DNA from: Pseudomonas laurentiana
GTDB taxonomy: Bacteria; Pseudomonadota; Gammaproteobacteria; Pseudomonadales; Pseudomonadaceae
DNA: 64,000 nucleotides
Reading direction: 5' to 3'
NCBI RefSeq assembly: GCF_014648275.1
Contig: NZ_BMQU01000009.1
Coordinates: forward strand, 142,161-206,160
This document shows positions 19,881 to 20,496 of this stretch, piece after piece. Below the pieces are notes generated by a model, which was not told the DNA's origin, ran no database searches, and saw only the letters and a program-made list of their open reading frames with translations. The first letter of the stretch is position 1; each line of letters starts with the position of its first letter. The position numbers and the translations under genes were made by a program.

Positions 19881-20253
19881 ATGGCTTCCCATTAATTAAC
19901 AACTGAATACCCGCCGCTCGCACAGTGGAGAGGCACCGACAATCAGGGATGTTTGCCACCCAAAAACGCGGCGAAGCAGGCTGCCAGGGAGGCCTGGCAG
20001 GCACATACCGGATGGCAGGGCGATTCCCGGTCCTGACAATATACAGTGAAGATGCGCGATATGACTCGCAGGTCACGCTTAATTTGCCGAATTGCTGACA
20101 AGCCAACAACACCCAGACCAATGGATTACACATCGAAAAAGCCGAAATTGCCGGCAATGCTTTTCCGTTCTATCGAGATTCAGTCGCTAAAGTCAGCCAC
20201 CTTGAATCCTTCCGATCCTTCACTTGAATACCCTTCCCAACCTCGCTAACCTT

Positions 20254-20285: not shown

Positions 20286-20313
20286 TCGCGGCCCGTATAG
20301 CAAAAGGCGCTAC

Positions 20314-20348: not shown

Positions 20349-20368
20349 GTGCCCGTTTTCTGTGTAAT

Positions 20369-20443
20369 GGCGGCTGTGCGTGGGAGACCTTCGGGTCTGC
20401 CGAGTTCCTTTTGCCTCGGTCCGCGAACCCGCGCACAGCTGCC
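20369..20443 (+). ncRNA. Structured leader upstream of the DUF3077 gene
   Basis: The RNA of this stretch would fold as a closed multi-branch element. An outer stem of 12 pairs (GGCGGCTGTGCG at 20369-20380 with CGCACAGCTGCC at 20432-20443, one G-U) continues through a U-G pair into GGG/CCC (16 pairs in all). Inside are two hairpins: AGACC-TTCG-GGTCT at 20385-20398 with a UUCG tetraloop, and CCGAG / CTCGG at 20400-20419 with a 10-base loop. It ends 41 bases before the ribosome site of the next gene. I recall near-identical sequences before DUF3077 genes in other fluorescent pseudomonads, but could not verify this. A TGTAAT box just upstream (20363-20368) could be a -10 element; if so, transcription would start inside the first arm and only the inner 10 pairs would form. 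Confidence 0.6.
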
Positions 20444-20496
20444 ACCCTATCGTTTCGCGGCGATAACTGGCAGCTCCATTGCAAAAGGAGTTCACC

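Follow-up and report, generated by a model that had tools for sequence, protein, structure and literature searches.

Multicopy C4 antisense RNA cassettes with predicted copy-specific targets upstream of DUF3077/DUF6124-like genes in Pseudomonas

Introduction

In phages P1 and P7 the C4 antisense RNA serves as the immunity RNA (immI), and heteroimmunity is coded by sequence. In the portions of the published accounts available, the folded RNA carries two elements, a' and b'; matching sites a1/b1 lie before it and a2/b2 after it, and b' pairs over the ribosome site. The first gene behind C4 in P1, icd, blocks cell division. C4 RNAs were reported for Proteobacteria and phages (Weinberg 2010, in the part available). 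At the isrK/orf45/anrP locus of Salmonella Gifsy-1, as partially accessible descriptions have it, a short a1b1-like RNA with a terminator is found together with a stable RNA (STnc1160), which we read as the counterpart of C4, and with a controlled small ORF. The Group 1 C4-like small RNAs of Acinetobacter baumannii are described, in the text available, as multicopy, chromosomal and variable in a'. A literature search with partial full-text coverage found no paper tying C4 to DUF3077 or DUF6124, or dealing with C4 arrays in Pseudomonas, and almost nothing on either protein family (a single paper on DUF3077, none on DUF6124). In a furfural-tolerant line of P. putida, a one-base insertion in a DUF3077 pseudogene is said to restore the reading frame (PMC9630843, in the part available).

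Here, a C4 cassette of Pseudomonas laurentiana is described. It lies in a stretch of 64,000 nt, referred to as the window (assembly GCF_014648275.1, contig NZ_BMQU01000009.1, positions 142,161 to 206,160); coordinates are those of the window and all features are on the plus strand. The cassette shares with P1 and P7 the fold, the a' and b' elements and the arrangement of their partner sites. It differs in that C4 RNAs of this type are present in many chromosomal copies, beside host-type genes in the ten checked, in that the partner is a small DUF3077/DUF6124-like gene and not icd-ant, and in that there is nearly one code per copy; the ant antirepressor gene of immI was not found behind the window C4. 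The predicted a1b1 RNA, the terminator-like site and the putatively controlled small ORF have their likeness in Gifsy-1, but the isrK match of the window is marginal, a single gene stands behind C4, and the neighbours are not phage genes: orf45-anrP downstream and antQ upstream of the isrK-like RNA are absent, and ACP-synthase-III-like and glycosyltransferase genes are found instead. Multiple chromosomal copies with a variable a' are shared with A. baumannii, where the available text does not assign the individual copies matched genes downstream; here such a gene mostly starts 45-58 nt after C4. The window C4 is a further member of a known family; what appears to be new, in the literature searched, is the array of cassettes predicted to be self-addressed, with a different partner gene.

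Results

Fold and family of the RNA element

A sequence-only reading of the window had described an ordered fold at 20369-20443 and knew of no named family for it. The predicted fold has an outer stem of 12 pairs (one G-U), which extends through a U-G pair into GGG/CCC and encloses two hairpins, one with 5 pairs and a UUCG cap and the other with 5, or 6 when a G-U is counted; all the pairs described before were found. The minimum free energy was -47.1 kcal/mol. Two hundred dinucleotide shuffles averaged -28.8 (sd 3.2; z = -5.76), and none of them folded equally well, which bears out the claim that the fold is far beyond chance. The covariance model of the Rfam C4 antisense RNA (RF01695) matched at 20363-20449 with 86.1 bits (cut-off, 45) and with all 87 model positions aligned. 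The element is a C4-type antisense RNA. A match to an existing Rfam family had been named in advance as evidence against the earlier account; such a match was found, and an unnamed family is ruled out by it. Three Rfam matches exceeded their cut-offs in the window (C4, c4-a1b1 and isrK), all inside one cassette. The earlier account was of the fold itself and left aside the intermolecular part, in which the two single-stranded elements of C4 are complementary to a1/b1 upstream and a2/b2 at the gene start.

For comparison across copies, 100 of the 104 C4 matches in three genomes were studied (26 of 26 in the window's own genome, G000, 39 of 42 in G005 and 35 of 36 in G010); the four omitted were below the cut-off and one of them was also partial. 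The C4 stems were 94.2% paired in these copies, against 83.5% in shuffles (reached by 0 of 500), and two-sided changes were present at 21 of the 27 pairs, so that compensatory change, which the sequence-only reading had proposed as a check, was observed. At the ends, GG was nearly constant (model positions 7-8, 99 of the 100 copies) and ACC frequent (positions 82-84, 88 copies); we take these ends to be a likeness to tRNA, as expected of an RNase P substrate.

Anatomy of the cassette

The order of elements is a weak promoter-like site, a1b1, a terminator-like site, C4, a2/b2 and the gene. The promoter-like site (TTGAAT-N17-TAACCT, 20224..20252, read by eye) stands right before the a1 hairpin; a strict promoter scan of the window found none. 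Of 80 cassettes, 40 have the layout TTG..TAnnnT upstream of the hairpin at a distance of 4-16 nt, where mononucleotide shuffles gave 0.5 (sd 0.7); the window cassette is not one of the 40. The hairpin and a1 form a c4-a1b1 element (RF03163; 20247..20299; 50.1 bits, cut-off 46.7). The a1 site TCGCGG (20286..20291) is predicted to pair with a' of C4 through 6 Watson-Crick pairs, and the b1 site GCAAAAGG (20300..20307) with the b' loop through 8. Overlapping them is a marginal match to isrK (RF01394; 20260..20348; 50.7 bits, cut-off 50), whose end is a terminator-like AGCGCC..GGCGCU-T7. Runs of at least six T within 110 nt upstream of C4 were found in 14 of 100 copies, the window copy among them.

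C4 follows at 20363..20449, and G20369 is the expected 5' end after RNase P cleavage, by analogy with P1/P7 and Acinetobacter in the accounts available. The b' loop GUUCCUUUUGCC (20404..20415) was placed between the P3 strands from the Rfam alignment and the pairing. Downstream, the a2 site TTCGCGG (20454..20460) forms 7 Watson-Crick pairs with a', and the b2 site GCAAAAGGAGU (20481..20491), which includes the Shine-Dalgarno sequence of the gene, forms 11 pairs with b', two of them G-U. The ribosome site is at about the 41 nt 3' of the element given by the sequence-only reading. Complementarity of b' to the ribosome site, complementarity of a' to a2 and upstream a1/b1 sites, by which C4 RNAs are recognised, are all present in the window; a1b1, C4 and a2/b2 are on one predicted transcript and fold together. 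Elsewhere in the same genome (contig C3, 3517-4099), three tandem C4 RNAs stand before one gene, and the upstream two are without a good a2/b2 match.

The downstream gene

The gene behind C4 (20497..20817) encodes a 106-aa protein with the N-terminus MHKVVPDPP, DUF3077/DUF6124-like by its profile scores: 21.0 bits for DUF3077 (PF11275) at a cut-off of 21, and 24.3 bits, below the cut-off of 27, for DUF6124 (PF19619). The earlier assignment to DUF3077 therefore holds as to type, with the protein a borderline member. A two-helix hairpin was predicted (mean pLDDT 74.7). A fold search of PDB and BFVD gave no match at E <= 0.001, and the best matches in a PDB sequence search were at E 0.31 or worse. 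PADLOC (4 proteins) gave no match; the one NCBIfam match (5 proteins searched) was a chance match (E 0.065). For the window protein, PHROGs, phage records and plasmid records gave no match, and a single-sequence search of viral contigs was likewise negative. A DUF3077 protein of G005 matched phrog_36471, a family with no assigned function (E 5.5e-10); a search of phages with a DUF3077 protein of that genome gave no match, and a DUF6124 protein of G010 had matches in one phage record and 55 viral loci and none in plasmids. The neighbouring genes tested (ACP-synthase-III-like, flagellin, FlaG and glycosyltransferase) are not phage genes.

In 60 of the 80 proteins, residues 6-9 are P(N/D)PP. At each proline of this motif all four Pro codons occur, which indicates that it is conserved as protein. 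Since no significant fold match was obtained, a role can be proposed from position alone. The place behind C4, where antirepressor-type genes can stand elsewhere, and the presence in prophages suggest a part in phage or prophage control, and an antirepressor-like or phage-exclusion function may be considered, as the least certain element of this study; by the example of icd, growth control may be another possibility.

Copy number and distribution

The window's own genome has 26 C4 copies. Twelve relatives of the same genus, searched first, had 1 to 42 each, and among six genomes of other genera in the same search one had a single C4. In wider scans at least one C4 was found in 231 of 249 genomes of the genus, the own genome included, and in 17 of 273 other genomes of the class (18 of 274 counting the own); at most 16 (genus) or 15 (class) candidates were scored per genome, so that copy numbers from these scans are floors. 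C4 cassettes have multiplied in this genus, up to dozens per genome. DUF6124 was present in 47 of 59 genus genomes, with up to 43 matches per genome, and in 0 of 273 other genomes of the class. Five of the 12 genomes without DUF6124 (G019, G026, G033, G034 and G047) were also without C4; the other seven had it. Genome G009 had 38 C4 copies and 2 DUF6124 matches, which, with the DUF6124 profile as the sole measure, suggests that other partner genes may exist.

Association of C4 with a small gene

A gene of the family (DUF3077/DUF6124-like or a related small gene) was found within up to 900 nt downstream of 94 of the 100 C4 copies, a count in which tandem C4 RNAs can share one gene and the stretch was shorter at some loci. 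Eighty-five of these had a gene of family 1 (DUF3077/DUF6124-like) and 11 one of family 2, two being in both. The families were built by iteration over the same 100 loci; the seed of family 1, which was picked for beginning with P(N/D)PP, contains one Bro-N gene (G005:3201382). The two families look distantly related by profile comparison (hhalign probability 87.5). The gene start was 30-80 nt after C4 in 80 copies, mostly at 45-58 nt, and was not in that range in 20; several of these starts are wrongly placed (C1:375859, G005:1866546, G010:337507 and G010:3097680 among them). Conversely, 41 of 47 gene-profile matches in three genomes (15 of 18, 8 of 9 and 18 of 20; coordinates compared by eye) had a C4 on the same strand just upstream, and six (3 of 18, 1 of 9 and 2 of 20) had none. 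Similar elements before such genes, mentioned for other fluorescent pseudomonads in the sequence-only reading, are recurrent among related genomes.

Bro-N antirepressor-type genes stand behind 2 of the 39 C4 copies studied in G005, and one of them begins MIKVTPNPP, like family 1. At another locus of the own genome (G000:C7:128007, L002; by eye), C4 is followed by a short PDPP reading frame and then by a separate DUF3077 gene, whose start it overlaps (ATGA); the layout resembles that of orf45-anrP, in which a small ORF is coupled to the main gene.

Loop and target sequences

Pairing energies were compared between each loop and its own target in 80 cassettes and after permutation within genomes. 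The mean b'-b2 energy was -12.84 kcal/mol, against -6.62 (sd 0.26) for permuted targets, and that of a'-a2 was -9.99, against -7.36 (sd 0.21); neither was reached in 10,000 permutations, and the upstream a1 and b1 sites gave 0 of 10,000 each. For 59 of the 80 loops the own b2 target was the best or tied-best in its genome, and for 21 it was not. The own a2 was best for 16 of 80, because a' codes are more shared. The own target of the window copy came first when the 14 intact copies of its genome were compared; with all 26 included, it ranked third for b' and second for a'. The b' loop of the window copy is the same as that of a broken copy at C16 and nearly the same as that of copy C4:154439.

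Related copies are taken as independent in the permutation, and independent pairs of sisters (proteins at least 50% identical) were used as the control for kinship. The own b' pairing was better than the swapped one in all 33 valid pairs, and the own a' pairing in all 27 pairs with differing a'. The tandem pair C1:376087/375859 shares one gene and was left out as invalid (34 of 34 with it). The advantage of own over swapped pairing held even between sisters with 98% identical proteins; this figure is given in place of the top valid pair (0.99), in which the protein is cut by the end of the stretch. In ten of the closest valid pairs, mean identity was 0.86 for the C4 backbone, 0.87 for the gene and 0.61 for b', for which random pairs gave 0.56. 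Distinct b' loops numbered 14 of 14, 34 of 34 and 31 of 32 in the three genomes. Judged from these sequences, nearly all C4 copies bear a loop/target code of their own, in which loop and target change together.

Cassettes at other loci and in phages

By blastn, a Pseudomonas defluvii locus (L104) aligned with the window over the cassette only (499 nt, 71%), which places the cassette at another locus there. Its a' differs from that of the window, and its a1 and a2 are each altered to match (by eye). In L104 (226-3422) the cassette is beside two genes that resemble type I restriction-modification subunits (by eye). In the own genome, one flanking gene was identified at each of ten C4 loci, and all ten were of host-type families, among them exonuclease VII and S-adenosylhomocysteine hydrolase.

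Relatives of a DUF6124 protein are encoded at 55 viral contig loci, and C4 was found upstream in all 14 of those scanned, in L179 at about 550 nt. Phage P2 carries the lysogenic-conversion (moron) genes Z/fun between tail-fibre-type and further tail genes. The cassette has a comparable position in L156 and L162, two prophage contigs of P2-like type: tail-fibre-type genes precede it, and tail-assembly or, in L162, sheath genes come after it. The likeness drawn to Z/fun is one of position, and the cassette is C4-linked. In a phage record (L207, EU982300, 18697-20354) a C4-DUF6124 cassette lies divergently beside the prophage repressor gene prtR (C4 by eye). Eleven stretches from other genera, which together hold 14 C4 copies, were also read. 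Two of these copies have antirepressor-type genes behind them, AntA and Rha, and others have small ORFs, in stretches with DUF927, an integrase or a sub-cut-off Toprim match. These stretches gave no relative of family 1 and one of family 2, behind the C4 of L209 (E 1.5e-14).

Phage and chromosomal codes were compared for 15 cassettes (13 from viral contigs, one from a phage record, and L104). Their own pairing was better than permuted (0 of 10,000), with the own target best for 11 of the 15. Some one of the 80 chromosomal loops outscored the own loop in 10 cassettes and tied in 2, so that energy by itself does not settle whether chromosomal codes guard against phage cassettes. Viral contig L166 and chromosomal copy G005:6430111 (C1) have an identical 12-nt b' loop, with an alignment limited to about 690 nt at 80% and a 64-nt stretch. 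L152 and G010:4470270 have a common code and 1.8 kb at 95%, which makes them probably the same prophage.

Discussion

The observations are very probably best explained, taken as a whole, by self-addressed cassettes in which a C4 RNA freed from a common transcript by RNase P keeps the small gene off and a1b1 acts as a decoy. This mechanism is drawn from the analogy with P1/P7 and isrK, as far as these are covered by the accounts available. One transcript would comprise a1b1, C4 and the gene, and RNase P would cut it at the 5' end of the C4 stem, as in phage P1. The freed C4 would then block translation by pairing at two places, b' with b2 over the Shine-Dalgarno sequence and a' with a2. The a1b1 leader, which carries the same target sites, may relieve this repression as a decoy, and where a terminator-like site stands between a1b1 and C4, as in the window, a short isrK-like decoy RNA may be made and the gene be turned on. 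Between the cis-acting leader and the released small RNA offered by the sequence-only reading, a regulatory RNA is retained, most likely a small RNA freed from its leader.

A leader acting in cis only, in which a1/b1 and a2/b2 are alternative partners of C4 in one molecule and no RNA is freed, would agree with the presence of all elements on one predicted transcript that folds together, and with the alternative leader structures of Gifsy-1 isrK in the published account as available; an end pattern that resembles RNase P substrates (GG almost always, ACC often) and the apparent processing of C4-like RNAs in Acinetobacter, in the part of that work available, speak against it, and it is considered improbable. 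It is a little less probable still that the cassettes are selfish phage relics, repeatedly domesticated and decaying, with codes that differ by separate origin and no present function. Similar cassettes do occur in viral contigs, and some copies have gene remnants or in-frame stops, but sisters with 97-98% identical proteins and different codes each still match their own target, P(N/D)PP is conserved as an amino-acid motif, its prolines being encoded by all four Pro codons, and the loops of ten close sister pairs are near-random while backbone and gene are 86-87% identical.

A third alternative is a C4 that works mainly in trans, as a family of multi-target small RNAs for which the link to the adjacent gene is incidental. 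Host targets were proposed for the multicopy Group 1 RNAs of A. baumannii, in the portion of that report available, and the window loop recurs in the broken copy at C16 and nearly so in C4:154439; against this, the own downstream target was better than permuted targets (0 of 10,000) and than the swapped targets of sisters (33 of 33), and this account is held to be the least likely of those weighed.

With self-addressed repression preferred, and since nearly every copy has its own code, each cassette would be expected to act mainly on itself and on incoming elements that share its code. A more speculative proposal, which we regard as possible but doubtful, is that the C4 immunity specificities of the genus form a library whose members are insulated from one another. 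Any one cassette would silence only itself and incoming elements with its code, an element with a new code would escape and fire its small protein on entry, and selection for insulation would make the codes change faster than the genes they control.

A C4 device in up to dozens of copies per genome would offer a natural test bed for the evolution of antisense specificity, and the cassettes provide many candidate orthogonal repressor pairs. For the DUF3077 and DUF6124 families, the linkage to C4 gives a handle on their study.
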